Positions 38,475-43,282 of a stretch of 58,783 nucleotides of DNA are shown here, piece after piece. The position numbers and the translations under genes were made by a program. Under the pieces are notes generated by a model, which was not told where the DNA came from, did no database searches, and saw nothing but the letters and a program-made list of their open reading frames with translations. How positions within the stretch are numbered: position 1 is the stretch's first letter; each line of letters starts with the position of its first letter. The DNA lies in assembly GCF_030157465.1 (NCBI RefSeq), contig NZ_JAOAUU010000059.1, positions 1-58,783 on the forward strand. Reading direction: 5' to 3'. Origin of the DNA: Zoogloea sp. Lineage in GTDB: Bacteria; Pseudomonadota; Gammaproteobacteria; Burkholderiales; Rhodocyclaceae.

Positions 38475-39761
38475 ATGAAAATGGAAAGGATCGGCAAATA
38501 CGAGGTCAGGCGAAAGCTGGGTGAAGGCGCGACCAGTACCGTCTATCTCGGCTTCGATCCTTTCGCCCAGCGGGAGGTGGCCATCAAGCGTCTTCACCCG
38601 GAGATGCTGCGGGTCACCGACCACACCACCCTGTACCACCACATGCTGCTCAACGAGGCCTCCCTCGCCGGCAAGCTGCAGCACCCGCACATCGTCCAGA
38701 TCCACGACGCGGTCATCGACGAGCGCGACGCCTACGTGGTCATGGAATACGTGCCCGGTGGCACCCTGGATGCCTTCACGAGCCCCGACACGCTGCTGCC
38801 TTTCGAGCGGCTGATCGAGATCATCTTCAAGTGCACCCGGGCCCTCGACTACGCCCACCTGCAGGGTGTCACGCACCGGGACATCAAGCCGGCCAACATC
38901 CTGCTCACGGCCCCCGACGGGCAGGACATCAAGATTTCCGACTTCGGCGCGGCAATCTTCACCGCCAGCGAAACCACCCAGCTGTCAGGCCTCGGCTCGC
39001 CCGCCTACATGTCGCCCGAGCAGGTCCGCGAACAGCCCCTCGACCACCGCACCGACATCTACTCCCTCGGCGTGGTGATGTATCAGCTGCTCACCGGCCG
39101 GCTGCCCTTCGAAGGCAGCAGCAAGGCCACGCTGATGTACAAGATCGCCCACGAAACGCCGCCGCCGCCGTCGAGCATCCGCCCGGAGATCCCGCCGGAA
39201 CTGGACGCCATCGTCTGCAAGGCCATGCGCTGCAACATCTCCGGGCGCTATGCGGCGTGGAGGGAGTTCTCCCACGATCTGGCCGAGGTCTATCGCAACC
39301 GCCGCACGGTGGCCGACAGCACCGAGCCGCCCGACAGCGAAAAATTCGAGCGCCTGCGCGCCTTCCGTTTCTTCCGTGAATTCAGCGACATCGAAATCTG
39401 GGAGATCGTCCGCTTTGCCGAATGGCGCCTGATCCCACCCGGCACCGTGGTCATGAAGGAAGGCGAACCGGGTAATTACTTCTGCTTCGTCGTCCAGGGC
39501 GAGCTGCGCATTGCCAAGAAAAGCCACCTGCTCAACGTGCTCAGCGCCGGAGACTGTTTTGGCGAGATGGCCCTTTTCTCCCCCGGCCGCGGCGCCCGCA
39601 CGGCCTCGGTTGAAACCACCACCGAAACGCGCATCCTGACCATCCGCGCCCCCGCCCTGCTGCGCGCATCCAGCCTGTGCCAAATGCATTTTTACAAAGG
39701 CTTCCTCGAAGTTCTGGCCAGCCGCCTGTCGCTCGCCAACAGCCGCATCGCCAGCATCTAG
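38475..39761 (+). CDS. Ser/Thr protein kinase fused to a cyclic-nucleotide-binding domain
   Basis: 428 aa. Kinase domain at ~1-275: GEGATSTVYLGF (Gly-rich loop), VAIKRLH (ATP Lys), VTHRDIKPANILL (catalytic Asp), ISDFGAA (Mg Asp) and YMSPEQV. A cNMP-binding domain follows at ~295-420: FREFSDIEIWEIV, PPGTVVMKEGEPGNYFCFVVQGEL and the phosphate-binding-cassette-like GDCFGEMALFSPGRGARTASV. No transmembrane helix, so cytoplasmic. Order is kinase then sensor, the reverse of eukaryotic PKG. Ligand (cAMP, cGMP or none) and substrates unknown. It follows argH by 6 nt. Confidence 0.9.
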   Translation: MKMERIGKYEVRRKLGEGATSTVYLGFDPFAQREVAIKRLHPEMLRVTDHTTLYHHMLLNEASLAGKLQHPHIVQIHDAVIDERDAYVVMEYVPGGTLDAFTSPDTLLPFERLIEIIFKCTRALDYAHLQGVTHRDIKPANILLTAPDGQDIKISDFGAAIFTASETTQLSGLGSPAYMSPEQVREQPLDHRTDIYSLGVVMYQLLTGRLPFEGSSKATLMYKIAHETPPPPSSIRPEIPPELDAIVCKAMRCNISGRYAAWREFSHDLAEVYRNRRTVADSTEPPDSEKFERLRAFRFFREFSDIEIWEIVRFAEWRLIPPGTVVMKEGEPGNYFCFVVQGELRIAKKSHLLNVLSAGDCFGEMALFSPGRGARTASVETTTETRILTIRAPALLRASSLCQMHFYKGFLEVLASRLSLANSRIASI

Positions 39762-39795
39762 GCGCGACGGCCTCCGCCGCCCGAAGAAACGCCAT

Positions 39796-39834
39796 CCGAA
39801 TCTGTCGGCTTTTTTGACACACGCCGGCAGATTC
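39796..39834 (+). terminator. Stem-loop with T-run after the kinase gene
   Basis: A short CCGA/TCGG hairpin (39796-39808) is followed by six to seven T. Alternatively 39798-39809 pairs with 39823-39834 (12 bp, one mismatch), placing the T-run in the loop. A weak terminator candidate 35 nt after the kinase stop. Confidence 0.35.
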
Positions 39835-40024
39835 GCGCGCCGATCTTTCCCATGCGGTTTTAATTCCTTTAAAATCATCGAGCTAAAATCGTTGAGAAAT
39901 CCGGAACGAAATTTGCTTGGCCTATATTGACCAAATGCGGACCCACGTCACGTCAACGTAAGCCTGGGCTGCCTATACTGCACATGAGAACGCCGGTCTT
40001 GGCGTCAGCAAAACGAGGTTTAGG

Positions 40025-40561
40025 ATGAATCTGGAAAAAACTGAAAAATCTGCCGCGCCGCAAGTCGCCAAGTCCGACAGCGCCGCATCGCAGAAGGGCC
40101 GTCGCCGACTCGTCCAGGCCGGTCTCGCCGGTGCCCCTTTGCTGATGGCCTTGAAAAGCACGCCGGTGCTGGCCTCGAACTGCAAGTTGCCGTCCGGCTT
40201 CTCTGTTTCCGGAAACCTGAGCCGTCCGCGCGACTATGTCTGCACGGAATTCATCAACCAGGGCGTGTCGTTCTGGAAAAGCAAACTCACCAACGACAGC
40301 ACCCTGGACATCAACTACGCTACCGCCTTTGGCAGCGACCCGAAGGGCTTCGGCACTCTGCTCGGTGCGCTCAACGGTTCTGATGTTGTCTACGCCAAAG
40401 CGGCCGCCGTCTACCTCAACGCCAACGCCACCGAGCGGGCCGCCCTCAAGGCCGTTGTTTACGATGGCCTTGAAGGGGCGGGCTATGTGCCCAGCGTCGG
40501 CGCCAAGCCCTGGCATGCACTTGAGGTCGAAGCTTATTTCAACTATTTCCTGGGCATATAA
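40025..40561 (+). CDS. Exported protein of unknown function at the head of the HPr-rel-A operon
   Basis: 178 aa. I do not recognise the family. The N-terminus is polar, then KGRRRLVQAGLAGAPLLMALK and an A-x-A-like end (TPVLA). This is a Tat-like signal with consecutive Arg before the hydrophobic stretch; Sec export is also possible. The mature part (~residues 51-178) has only two Cys (SNCKLPS, DYVCTEF) and no membrane helix. The next gene, a PqqD-like protein, is in the same frame 21 nt after this stop. Position and strand suggest it is the substrate or client of the downstream PqqD/HprK/nucleotidyltransferase enzymes; this is inference. Confidence 0.7.
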   Translation: MNLEKTEKSAAPQVAKSDSAASQKGRRRLVQAGLAGAPLLMALKSTPVLASNCKLPSGFSVSGNLSRPRDYVCTEFINQGVSFWKSKLTNDSTLDINYATAFGSDPKGFGTLLGALNGSDVVYAKAAAVYLNANATERAALKAVVYDGLEGAGYVPSVGAKPWHALEVEAYFNYFLGI

Positions 40562-40582
40562 GCAGCCCACCCCTGCCCGTTT

Positions 40583-40906
40583 TTGCCTCTCCTTTTGCCT
40601 GTACAAGGTTACGTCGCCACTGCAGCCCTTCTCGAAGGGCTGCAGTTCGTTCTCTGGAAGGAAGTCGACGAAGGCTGGGTCCGCTTCGACCCGACCGCCG
40701 GCCAGACGCTGCTGCTGGCACCGATCAGCCGCTTCGTGCTCGGTCAGCTGTCGCTCCCCGGCCGCGTCCTTTCGGTCGATGATCTCGCTTACGCCGTCCT
40801 GCACGAAGAGCCCGATGCGCCGCCCGACGACTGCCGCCTCGCGGTCAGCGCAGCCGTTGACGCCCTCGCCGCGGCCCGCCTGATCGAGCAGCACCGTCCC
40901 TCTTGA
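40583..40906 (+). CDS. PqqD-like peptide-binding protein (HPr-rel-A type)
   Basis: About 107 aa; the start is uncertain. No ATG exists in frame. TTG at 40583 or 40595 are the available starts and neither has a ribosome binding site. The recognisable core is FVLWKEVDEGWVRFDP, then GQTLLLAPISRFVLGQL, then VSAAVDALAAARLI, the wing and helices of the PqqD/RiPP-recognition fold. PqqD-family proteins hold a precursor peptide for a modifying enzyme. A 12-bp perfect hairpin (40619-40646) lies inside the first third of the coding region. The stop overlaps the TTG start of the kinase-like gene in TTGA. Confidence 0.6.
   Translation: MPLLLPVQGYVATAALLEGLQFVLWKEVDEGWVRFDPTAGQTLLLAPISRFVLGQLSLPGRVLSVDDLAYAVLHEEPDAPPDDCRLAVSAAVDALAAARLIEQHRPS
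40619..40646 (+). repeat. Perfect 12-bp hairpin with CTCG loop inside the pqqD-like 5' region
   Basis: ACTGCAGCCCTT (40619-40630) and AAGGGCTGCAGT (40635-40646) pair exactly around a 4-nt loop. It could limit read-through from the abundant upstream gene into the enzyme genes, or shield the start of the PqqD-like gene. Confidence 0.7.
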
Positions 40907-41829
40907 GAATCCGCGACCTGTCCCCGTCCGACTTCCGTGCCCGCCTCGGCGGAGACGGCATCCGCCTGGCGACGGGGCCGTTCAACTGCCGCCTGCAGAG
41001 CGGCATCGGCGAGATTGCCGATGAACTCGCCCGGCTCTACGCGCACCACACGCTGGTCGACAGCTCCGCCTTCACCGATTTCCACATCGCCGTCCAGCCC
41101 GGACACGGCCTGCGGCGCTGGCTGCGCCCGCAGGCGCTGTTCTCGGTGGATTCCGTCGAGCCCTTCACCCCGCTTCCCCGTGCCCAGGCCCTGCCCATGC
41201 TGGAATGGGGCCTCAACTGGTGCGTCACCGCCTACAGCCAGCACATCCTGGTGCTCCACGCGGCAGCCGTTGCCCGCGGCAACCGGGCGGCCATCCTGCC
41301 TGCCCCGCCGGGCTCCGGCAAAAGCACCCTGTGCGCCGCGCTGGTCAACCGCGGCTGGCGTCTGCTGTCGGACGAACTGACCCTGATCAGCGTCGAAACC
41401 GGCCAGGTCATGGGCCTCGCCCGGCCGGTCAACCTCAAGAACGCCTCGATCGACATCATCCGCGCCTACGCGCCCGACGCCTTCCTGACCCAGCCCGTGC
41501 ATGACACCACCAAGGGCACGGTGGCCCTGATGGCCCCGACCGCAGCCAGCGTCGAAGCCGTCGACACACCGGCCGCGCCCACCTGGATGATCCTGCCCCG
41601 CTACCGCGCCGGCGCTGACGCCACCCTCACCCCGATGGGCAGCGGCACCGCCTTCCTGCAGATCGCCGACAACGCCATGAACTACCACATCCTCGGCGCG
41701 CAGGGCTTCGAAGCGGTGGGCCGCATGGTGGACAGCTGCCAGAGCTACGGCTTCGAATACAGCCGGCTCGACGACGCCATTGCAGTGTTCGATCGCCTGG
41801 CCGCAGAAGCGGAAAGCGAAGCCCGATGA
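40903..41829 (+). CDS. HprK-related kinase A
   Basis: 308 aa from a TTG start that overlaps the previous stop by 4 nt. P-loop PAPPGSGKSTLCAALVNRG at ~133-151, followed by a WRLLSDELTLI segment like the HPr kinase/phosphorylase core. It lacks the HprK N-terminal domain of Firmicutes, and no PTS HPr gene is in the window. Relatives of HprK phosphorylate peptide substrates in some RiPP pathways (lasso peptides). Here the fixed trio with PqqD-like and nucleotidyltransferase proteins matches the HPr-rel-A system named in protein family databases. The substrate is unknown. Confidence 0.8.
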   Translation: MRIRDLSPSDFRARLGGDGIRLATGPFNCRLQSGIGEIADELARLYAHHTLVDSSAFTDFHIAVQPGHGLRRWLRPQALFSVDSVEPFTPLPRAQALPMLEWGLNWCVTAYSQHILVLHAAAVARGNRAAILPAPPGSGKSTLCAALVNRGWRLLSDELTLISVETGQVMGLARPVNLKNASIDIIRAYAPDAFLTQPVHDTTKGTVALMAPTAASVEAVDTPAAPTWMILPRYRAGADATLTPMGSGTAFLQIADNAMNYHILGAQGFEAVGRMVDSCQSYGFEYSRLDDAIAVFDRLAAEAESEAR

Positions 41830-42938
41830 GCCTGCTGGTCCAGGTGTTCCGCCAGCCGGACCAAATCCGGCGCCTCCAGGCACACGAGTGGGATCTACTG
41901 GTTCGCCAGGCGCGTCACGCCAACCTGCTCGGCCGGCTCCACCACCGCCTGCTGGCAGCCGGACTGGCCGCCGAGATACCCCGCCGCCCCGCCAATCATC
42001 TCCTGTCCGGCGCCGTCATGGCCGGGCAGCAGCATCACTCGATCCGCCGCGAAGTCCGTTTTCTGCGCGAAGCCCTGGCGCCGGCCGGCATTCCGCTGAT
42101 CCTGCTCAAGGGCGCGGCCTACGTCGCCGCCGGGCTGCCCGCCGCCGAAGGGCGCCTGTTTGCCGACGTGGACATCCTGGTGCCCCGCGAACAGCTTGGC
42201 GAAGCCGAATCAGCACTGATGATGACCGGCTGGCAAAGCACCGCCCTCGACGCCTACGACCAGCGCTACTACCGCCGCTGGATGCACGAACTGCCGGCCA
42301 TGCAGCACATCTTCCGCGGCACGGCCCTCGATGTGCACCACACGATCCTGCCGCCGACCGCGCGCCTCAAACCCGACCCGCGCCTCCTTGTCGAAGCCAG
42401 CGTCGAAATTCCCGGCCTGCCCGGCGTGCGCACCCTCGCCCTGCCCGACCTGATCCTGCACAGCGCCACCCACCTGTTCCACGAAGGCGAACCCGACAAC
42501 CTGCTGCGCGACCTCACCGACCTGGACGCACTGCTGCGCCACCTCGGCACCACCCCCGGCAACTGGGACGCACTCGTAGCACGGGCTCAGCAACTCGGGC
42601 TGGAAGGCCCGCTGCGCCTCGCCCTGCGCTACACCTGCCGCGTGCTCGGCACCCCGGTGCCGGCTGCCCTGGACTGCCTTGGCGCAGGCGGGCCAGGCCA
42701 GCGCATGCTCGACGCGATCTATTCCCGCGTGCTGCGCCCGCAACACCCGAGCACCGCCGACGTCCTCTCCCCCCTCGCCCGCAAAAGCCTCTACATCCGC
42801 GCCCACTGGCTGCGCATGCCGCCTCACCTGCTGGCCTATCACCTGGCCCACAAGGCGCTTTTTCCGCCGGAAGCCCTCACCAAACCGCTGTCAGACGACA
42901 AGTCCCACGAAAAACCGGACGCAAAAAAAGCGGCCTGA
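41826..42938 (+). CDS. Nucleotidyltransferase-family protein (NTP_transf_5-like)
   Basis: 370 aa. The start overlaps the kinase-like gene stop in ATGA. Nucleotidyltransferase core at ~85-150: LILLKGAAYVAAGL, the metal-binding GRLFADVDILVPRE (DxD), and further GTALDVHHTILPP. The C-terminal ~120 residues are helical and basic. In lasso-peptide clusters a similar enzyme acts after an HprK-like kinase, adding groups to the phosphate. Function here is inferred only from that parallel. Last gene of the operon; a strong terminator includes its stop codon. Confidence 0.8.
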   Translation: MSLLVQVFRQPDQIRRLQAHEWDLLVRQARHANLLGRLHHRLLAAGLAAEIPRRPANHLLSGAVMAGQQHHSIRREVRFLREALAPAGIPLILLKGAAYVAAGLPAAEGRLFADVDILVPREQLGEAESALMMTGWQSTALDAYDQRYYRRWMHELPAMQHIFRGTALDVHHTILPPTARLKPDPRLLVEASVEIPGLPGVRTLALPDLILHSATHLFHEGEPDNLLRDLTDLDALLRHLGTTPGNWDALVARAQQLGLEGPLRLALRYTCRVLGTPVPAALDCLGAGGPGQRMLDAIYSRVLRPQHPSTADVLSPLARKSLYIRAHWLRMPPHLLAYHLAHKALFPPEALTKPLSDDKSHEKPDAKKAA

Positions 42939-42950
42939 GCCGCTTTTTTT
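42923..42950. terminator. Bidirectional terminator between the nucleotidyltransferase and grxD
   Basis: AAAAAAAGCGGC (42923-42934) pairs with GCCGCTTTTTTT (42939-42950) around a CTGA loop. T-runs on both strands serve the convergent genes on each side. Confidence 0.9.
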
Positions 42951-42967
42951 ACCGGAACCGCACCGCT

Positions 42968-43282
42968 TTAGGCCAGATCGGCAATCAGCTGCTTCAGTTC
43001 GCCGGACTGGTACATCTCGCGCATGATGTCGGACCCGCCGACAAACTCGCCCTTGATGTAGAGCTGCGGAATGGTCGGCCAGTTGGCGTATTCCTTGATG
43101 CCCTGGCGGATACCCTCGTCGGCCAGCACATCCACCGCAAAGACTTCACCAGCGCCGCAAGCCTGCAGAATCTGGACCGCAGTAGCGGAAAAACCGCAAC
43201 GCGGCATGGCCGGGCTGCCCTTCATGTACAGCACGACCGGGTGGGTGGTGACTTGTTCGTGAATGATTTTTTGAACGTCCAT
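42968..43282 (-). CDS. grxD: Monothiol glutaredoxin Grx4
   Basis: 104 aa from ATG 43282. The CGFS active site (MPRCGFSATAVQIL) binds a [2Fe-2S] cluster with glutathione. WPTIPQLYIKGEFVGGSDI is the glutathione-binding cis-Pro region. Role in iron-sulfur trafficking. Last gene of the leftward hemA-prfA-prmC-grxD set, 62 nt after prmC. Confidence 0.96.
   Translation of the reverse strand: MDVQKIIHEQVTTHPVVLYMKGSPAMPRCGFSATAVQILQACGAGEVFAVDVLADEGIRQGIKEYANWPTIPQLYIKGEFVGGSDIMREMYQSGELKQLIADLA

Follow-up and report, generated by a model that had tools for sequence, protein, structure and literature searches.

A leader-like export signal and two conserved serines suggest that an HPr-rel-A gene trio modifies an exported protein in Zoogloea

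The closest described relatives of the system reported here are peptide pathways with serine-phosphorylating HprK-like kinases. In the linear polyphosphorylated peptides (LPP) of Bacillota, the leader is bound by a RiPP recognition element (RRE; RiPP, ribosomally synthesized and post-translationally modified peptide) and the HprK-like kinase LppK adds between one and four phosphates to core residue Ser3, next to the site where a signal-peptidase-like protease cuts the leader (PMC13381572, Nat Commun, May 2026). The authors describe LPP as restricted to Bacillota and discrete RREs as hallmarks of RiPP clusters. In the pseudomycoidin pathway, the phosphoserine receives one or two hexoses from PsmN, an enzyme annotated as a nucleotidyltransferase (PMC9266682). 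A trio of related genes, named HPr-rel-A, is defined in the curated library NCBIfam, where the family names of its kinase (TIGR04352) and PqqD-family chaperone (TIGR04353) state no substrate. Here we analyze a 58,783-nucleotide stretch of DNA from Zoogloea sp. (Rhodocyclaceae; assembly GCF_030157465.1, contig NZ_JAOAUU010000059.1; hereafter the window), in which such a trio directly follows the gene of a 178-aa exported protein at positions 40025..42938.

We propose that the four genes form a system that modifies the exported protein, and we give this reading a probability of roughly 0.64. The N-terminus of the 178-aa protein would be a twin-arginine translocation (Tat) export signal and a RiPP-like leader at once. 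The PqqD-like protein, acting as an RRE, would hold this leader in the cytoplasm and present the C53-S66 stretch to the HprK-related kinase, which would phosphorylate one or more serines, with S57 and/or S62 as the likeliest sites. A further group would then be attached to the phosphoserine by the nucleotidyltransferase-fold enzyme. This group could be a nucleotide or, by analogy with what is reported for PsmN, a sugar such as a hexose. The product would leave via Tat and a housekeeping signal peptidase would remove the signal, leaving the modified serines near the mature N-terminus, outside the cytoplasm. RRE-guided phosphorylation, a second group and removal of the signal are proposed by the same logic as in LPP and PsmN. 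The proposal builds on the association of the genes, their conservation, the predicted RRE fold, the intact catalytic residues, and a TatC gene in the genome; from these we infer leader binding, phosphorylation, the second modification, and export by Tat rather than Sec.

The gene of the exported protein (40025..40561) is separated by 21 bases from the PqqD-like gene (40583..40906; 107 aa, with a putative TTG start that is the longest choice). The HprK-related kinase A gene (40903..41829; 308 aa, TTG start) and the NTP_transf_5 enzyme gene (41826..42938; 370 aa) follow, and all four genes lie on the forward strand. Four-base overlaps (TTGA and ATGA) join the PqqD-like, kinase and NTP_transf_5 genes to one another. 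The kinase scored 386 bits against the HprK_rel_A model TIGR04352 (cut-off 200), which makes it an HPr-rel-A kinase, and the third enzyme scored 190 bits against PF14907 (NTP_transf_5, cut-off 31). The PqqD-like protein remained below threshold in both libraries (PF05402, 20.6 versus 23.4 bits; TIGR04353, 17.5 versus 35). Two scanned relatives at the same position pass TIGR04353 with 37.2 and 54.7 bits, and the window gene appears to be a divergent TIGR04353-type member in the right place. Sequence and family scores thus confirmed the gene order, the overlaps, and the HPr-rel-A assignment made in a preliminary description of this DNA. Its PqqD-like call held despite the low family scores, as the predicted fold and family profile resemble those of an RRE, and so did its view that the 178-aa protein belongs to no known family: no Pfam family matched and no NCBIfam family scored above cut-off. 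Its statement that no HPr or phosphotransferase system gene is present was correct for this locus but not for the genome, in which contig C51 encodes HPr and contig C55 a canonical HPr kinase. The window kinase is therefore a second, divergent one.

We searched for the quartet in 150 genomes of the same family, 369 of the class, 398 of the phylum, and a collection of named genomes. The kinase was present above cut-off in 59 of the 150 family genomes (60 matches). A single-sequence search with the 178-aa protein hit 17 same-family genomes, and all 17 matches adjoin the kinase. An iterated profile found the exported protein in 58 of 61 family loci, missing one locus at a contig edge and two with kinases below cut-off; this model was trained on the family loci, so that the family count, unlike those of the other sets, is not independent. 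At the above-cut-off family loci the protein was found in 59 of 60 cases, including one (G035) that was checked in its short locus. For the class, named and phylum sets, matches were accepted up to E 0.01. The kinase occurred above cut-off in 41 of the 369 class genomes, with the exported protein at 39 of the 40 new loci. The lone misses in the family and class sets (L083 and L172) lie at contig edges, and the class miss has only 265 bases of contig upstream of the PqqD-like gene.

The association extended beyond the class. In the named collection, which comprises the best 80 of 268 relatives (Massilia and Rhodoferax are among the genera seen) and draws several loci from the same genomes as the numbered loci, the exported protein was found at all 80 loci and the nucleotidyltransferase gene at 79. 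These loci include a Rhodospirillales metagenome-assembled genome (MAG), a Magnetospira MAG, Malonomonas rubra, and a Planctomycetaceae MAG (L305, the weakest match, E 0.01). At the phylum level, the kinase was present in 61 of 398 genomes and 43 of 48 loci matched either of two exported-protein models at weak thresholds; these rows were not each checked by eye, and the 48 loci, with one genome counted twice (L349 and L373), represent the 61 matching genomes less others, some of which had been examined earlier. Six of the 40 class loci carry the nucleotidyltransferase gene on the opposite strand, and there the exported protein, PqqD-like and kinase genes remain together. Because the quartet recurs in the family, class, named and phylum samples, its arrangement is not due to chance. 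Seven stretches on viral contigs matched a pattern and none of them encodes a relative. Co-occurrence of the exported protein with the trio was one of two tests that the preliminary description had set itself. The near-complete result, together with the two invariant serines described below, supports its reading of a modification system with the 178-aa protein as substrate, and we consider it very probable that the exported protein is indeed the substrate of the trio.

We also searched the class genomes for the leader without the kinase, using a model of 62 exported proteins and scoring at most eight candidates per genome. This search gave 64 matches in the 369 genomes: 56 cover the signal region and eight the mature domain only. 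Among the 56 leader-type matches, 39 lie within 4 kb of an HprK_rel_A kinase, nine within 4 kb of a weaker HprK-like kinase, and eight near neither. Six of these eight are in genomes with such a kinase elsewhere and two (L224 and G205) in genomes without a kinase match; the L224 match looks like an ordinary Tat substrate. One of the six is a clear second copy of the exported protein, in genome G445 (L226, 6905-8101), which carries the same leader and a CTLSGMMSGNVS motif. No trio was found beside it and the trio is on another contig; judged by its sequence, this copy looks like a substrate encoded apart from its enzymes. In a Thiobacillus MAG (L264, 4001-8883) the system appears to be duplicated in tandem: two kinase genes and two nucleotidyltransferase genes follow one another, and an exported protein is encoded between them.

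The 178-aa protein carries a twin-arginine-like signal at residues 25-50 (GRRRLVQAGLAGAPLLMALKSTPVLA), and just after it the stretch C53-KLP-S57-GFSV-S62-GNL-S66. A structure model predicts a confident helical domain at residues 81-178, with low confidence for the first 70 residues, serines included. We aligned 62 of 97 exported proteins (71 passed the score limit and nine were removed by hand for near identity or an unusual body). Mean column identity was 14%, and the sole invariant residues were R27 of the twin arginine, S57, and S62; the most divergent exported proteins, which lack one or both serines, lie beyond these 62 rows. Invariant serines at the mature N-terminus are the pattern expected of a kinase target.

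To this alignment we added motif counts in 170 distinct relatives. A cysteine follows the hydrophobic stretch in 167 of them. A cysteine and, after it, two spaced serines follow the signal in 142 of the 170, against a mean of 33 and a maximum of 48 in 200 shuffles of these stretches and 4 of 165 random downstream stretches. Three spaced serines were found in 111 (shuffle mean 20) and S-G/A-N-x-S in 68 (shuffle mean 1.3). The bare serine pair, present in 153 against a shuffle mean of 118, is weak evidence alone; it is absent in 17, two of which are mis-anchored rows. In more distant clades the serine precedes the cysteine and still lies few residues from the predicted cleavage site. We think it probable that the modification site is a serine next to the signal. 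Outside the class, a distant clade (L361-L364, L366, L368, L369) has a short exported protein of 129-165 aa (longest frame) with the serine before the cysteine, and its C-terminus, where read, is SGFTCFASLQMPRG or near it.

The conserved cysteine also suggested a lipoprotein. This idea was rejected: the cysteine is not in a lipobox, it lies at no fixed distance from the AxA site, and in the window residue -1 is N. Another cysteine is usually found ahead of an SPGYWK-like motif; pattern matching located this motif in 111 of the 170 proteins, of which 101 have both cysteines, nine the first only, and one neither. These counts do not bear out the idea that the two cysteines are lost together, and a disulfide between them is a suggestion only. 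At L214 (484-1911), an apparently exported 475-aa protein has a C-terminal part that resembles the mature domain (TPGYWRQPQHFWAW...), with no kinase match within 4 kb. By these resemblances the mature domain seems to be a reusable module. The mature domain changes fast and recurs in other proteins, as would fit a function at the cell surface or outside the cell.

As a rule, signal peptides change more quickly than the proteins they carry. The opposite was observed here. Across 50 close pairs of exported proteins, the 42 residues from the twin arginine were 65% identical and the remainder 48%; the pairs share members, the first mature residues were counted with the leader, and the comparison has no ordinary exported proteins as control. 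The window protein and that of L069, whose kinases are 83% identical, share 74% of the leader region and 28% of the remainder. Since the leader changes more slowly than the rest, unlike an ordinary signal peptide, the region seems to have a second job besides export.

The signal itself bears on the route of export. The modified protein might leave via Sec rather than Tat, with all other steps as proposed above: the RRRLVQ of the window matches the Tat consensus imperfectly, and the protein has a small mature domain. However, the twin arginine is present in 167 of the 170 relatives, at the expected Tat positions 86% of the rows have L or F and 68% have K or R, and the small precursors described below carry the canonical SRRxFLK consensus. 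The genome also encodes TatC. We therefore regard Tat as the likely route and Sec as rather unlikely.

Both enzymes of the quartet have intact active-site residues. The kinase could be aligned to HprK, and its H119, K140, D157 and E158 were each intact in 99 of 99 sequences. In the NTP_transf_5 enzyme, L94-K95-G96, R110, D114, D116, D169, H171 and H172 were each intact in 98 of 98. The predicted fold and family profile of the PqqD-like protein are closest to the B1 proteins of lasso peptides, and we propose that it is a discrete RRE and putative leader binder. RREs are winged folds of three strands and three helices that bind a leader.

HprK-family enzymes can be bifunctional kinase/phosphorylases and Tat substrates are proofread in the cytoplasm. 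The kinase and RRE might thus only control export or folding, with reversible phosphorylation as a quality check and an unmodified mature product. A phosphate on the conserved serines, which adjoin the cleavage site, could gate processing, and the LPP precursor is processed inefficiently without its phosphate (PMC13381572). On the contrary, the nucleotidyltransferase gene at 79 of the 80 named loci and the catalytic residues intact in all 98 sequences imply a further stable step. Control of export alone is in our judgment improbable, and we favor lasting modification of the exported protein. The data allow, and do not directly support, the further idea that the kinase and nucleotidyltransferase together build a nucleotide or sugar phosphate linked to Ser, by which the exported protein would be anchored at the cell surface.

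A sister set of proteins links the signal to smaller precursors. Beside HprK-like kinases that score below the TIGR04352 cut-off, we found precursor-like proteins of 56-149 aa with the consensus SRRxFLKKTAYVAPAILTLxAxPAxAxxGS. In 14 aligned small precursors, the invariant positions are R, R, F, Y, A, P and, further on, another A. Of 23 loci searched, 14 hold a small precursor. In 10 of the 14, the stretch analyzed also includes one or more of the kinase, PqqD-like and NTP_transf_5 genes. The nine kinases at these loci keep the histidine and GKST, with SDE in eight and TDE in one. All three partners are encoded in the L218 cluster (PqqD, 55 bits; NTP_transf_5, 153 bits). A model of the small precursors matched in 23 of the 369 class genomes and also hit leaders of the large family (for example G487, G335 and G271), showing that the two leaders are related.

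The small signals also carry an RRE-type motif. Discrete lasso RREs bind [Y/W]xxPx[L/V/I/F/A] (PMC13381572), and the YxxPx(I/V/L) inside the small-precursor Tat signal fits this motif. In the large family the Y is lost (A or G at this position in 58% of the 170 relatives) and the P is kept in about half. Among the shortest precursors, of 56-90 aa, are three in one locus (L215, 8653-9885) and those at L216 (4576-6391), L217 (7346-7564), L218 (7976-8203), L220 (7446-7709), L225 (1964-2236) and L330 (5042-5212). In these the Tat motif runs into the lasso-type YxxP leader motif (FxxP in L330) and a GS is conserved; from sequence alone, they look like an undescribed group of Tat-exported RiPPs. 

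These precursors bear on another possibility, in which an unannotated peptide is the precursor that the trio turns into a small RiPP, with the exported protein as a mere neighbor, such as an immunity or carrier protein. Discrete RREs are a hallmark of RiPP clusters in the published account of LPP (PMC13381572), and the mature part of the exported protein is highly variable. However, the 21-base gap and the overlapping genes leave no room for a peptide gene between those of the window quartet, the exported protein keeps its place with the RRE and kinase at loci that have the nucleotidyltransferase gene elsewhere, and its signal region is related to the small precursor-like proteins beside related kinases. 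We consider this possibility very unlikely. That the kinase targets a cytoplasmic regulator such as HPr, with the exported protein as a regulated output encoded nearby, is more improbable still: the kinase has the HprK fold and the genome encodes HPr, yet a canonical HPr kinase is already present for that job, the association with the exported protein is near-complete across distant clades, and that protein has serines and an arginine as its invariant residues.

No fifth gene of the system emerged, as no other cluster was near-universal across the 61 family loci, which occupy differing chromosomal places. In the window, argH and a Ser/Thr kinase gene lie to one side of the quartet, with glutaredoxin, prmC, prfA and hemA to the other. 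This place recurs in the family (argH at 31 of the 61 loci; glutaredoxin, prmC, prfA and hemA at 23-25). Ten scanned neighbors are housekeeping or regulatory (H-NS, a LytTR regulator, a histidine kinase, ArgH, glutaredoxin, PrmC, release factor 1, HemA, an enoyl-CoA hydratase, and a transglycosylase). The gene directly upstream (38475-39761) encodes a 428-aa Ser/Thr protein kinase with a C-terminal cyclic-nucleotide-binding domain; its cluster is found at 20 of the 61 loci and it seems to belong to the chromosomal place, not to the quartet. A second place, with SLT/Sel1 and TPR genes, was found at 13 of the 61 loci (L054, L055, L059-L062, L065, L067, L095, L099, L100, L104, L105). At 12 of these (not L055) there is a gene for a peptidase that is trypsin-like rather than SipW-like, convergent with the quartet in 10 and upstream in two, with no overlap with the argH loci. 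We read this as a place common to a lineage, and the peptidase could be a processing protease. Other neighbor clusters, for each of which one representative was scanned, were PEP carboxylase (19 of the 61 loci), fructosamine kinase (14), two sensor kinases (9 and 8), a chaperonin fragment (7), a UDP-sugar dehydrogenase (6), and an epimerase (6).

A perfect 12-bp inverted repeat with a T run at its end surrounds the stop codon of the last gene (42923..42950, forward strand) and is a possible transcription end. A rule-based terminator scan of 39700-43100 found no terminator-like site; the rule wants Ts after the stem, and here they lie within it. Among the best 80 of 268 named relatives, the kinases closest to that of the window come from a Zoogloea MAG and a Proteobacteria MAG (81% identity each).

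Taken together, these results make it possible to name a probable substrate, likely serines, and a likely export route for the HPr-rel-A trio, for which we found no publication naming a substrate. A literature search, with subscription papers and preprints mostly outside its reach, returned no paper using HPr-rel-A, HprK-related kinase A, TIGR04352, TIGR04353 or PF14907, and the titles and abstract starts of the matches listed described no such system apart from the LPP and lasso papers. If the proposed modification is correct, the RiPP logic of leader, RRE and tailoring enzymes extends to whole exported proteins, with the export signal serving as leader. HprK-type serine phosphorylation would then be widespread outside Bacillota, as the kinase passes its cut-off in 59 of the 150 genomes sampled from the family, 41 of the 369 from the class and 61 of the 398 from the phylum. 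The broader idea is that the Tat signal is a RiPP leader throughout an unrecognised class of Tat-exported phosphoserine proteins and peptides outside Bacillota, comprising the large family and the 56-149-aa precursors, each served by an RRE and an HprK-type kinase that act on one or more serines next to the signal-peptidase site, and by a nucleotidyltransferase that caps the phosphate; we hold the odds on this to be even.

How does this system compare with those already described? Similarity to the SynChlorMet cassette (ScmC, ScmD) is weak only: the kinase and RRE reached 22 and 21 bits against TIGR04249 and TIGR04248, far under the cut-offs of 125 and 100. The tailoring of the lasso peptides paeninodin and pseudomycoidin (PadeK, ThcoK, PsmK/PsmN) is alike in that an HprK-like kinase phosphorylates a serine and a nucleotidyltransferase-like enzyme follows (PMC9266682). 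It differs in that the site is the C-terminal serine of a short lasso precursor and the pathway includes a cyclase and a leader peptidase. Neither a macrolactam synthase nor a B2 peptidase was among the ten scanned neighbors of the window quartet. These lasso precursors are not known to carry a Tat signal.

LPP is closer. It shares with the window system a precursor with a conserved N-terminus and a highly variable C-terminus, a discrete RRE (putative here), an HprK-like kinase, and an NTP transferase, and with the reading proposed here a modified serine just after a leader cleavage site that is cut by a signal-peptidase-type enzyme. However, the LPP cluster includes a dedicated SipW-like peptidase and an MsbA-like exporter, and neither was among the ten scanned neighbors of the window quartet. 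The LPP leader motif is YxxPxVLxHQxIxFETxxS; the window leader, AGAPLLMALKSTPVLA, lacks the Y and does not match it. The proposed leader here is a twin-arginine-like signal, and the terms 'Tat' and 'signal peptide' are absent from the main text of the LPP paper (PMC13381572). The hosts here are Pseudomonadota plus a few others, whereas those of LPP are Bacillota. With neither a SipW-like peptidase nor such a transporter among these neighbors and with a different leader motif, the window system is not a member of LPP, though it would work like it. By its kinase model, the window trio is the HPr-rel-A system of NCBIfam, and the adjacent NTP_transf_5 enzyme, which we take to be a defining feature of that system, is present here.

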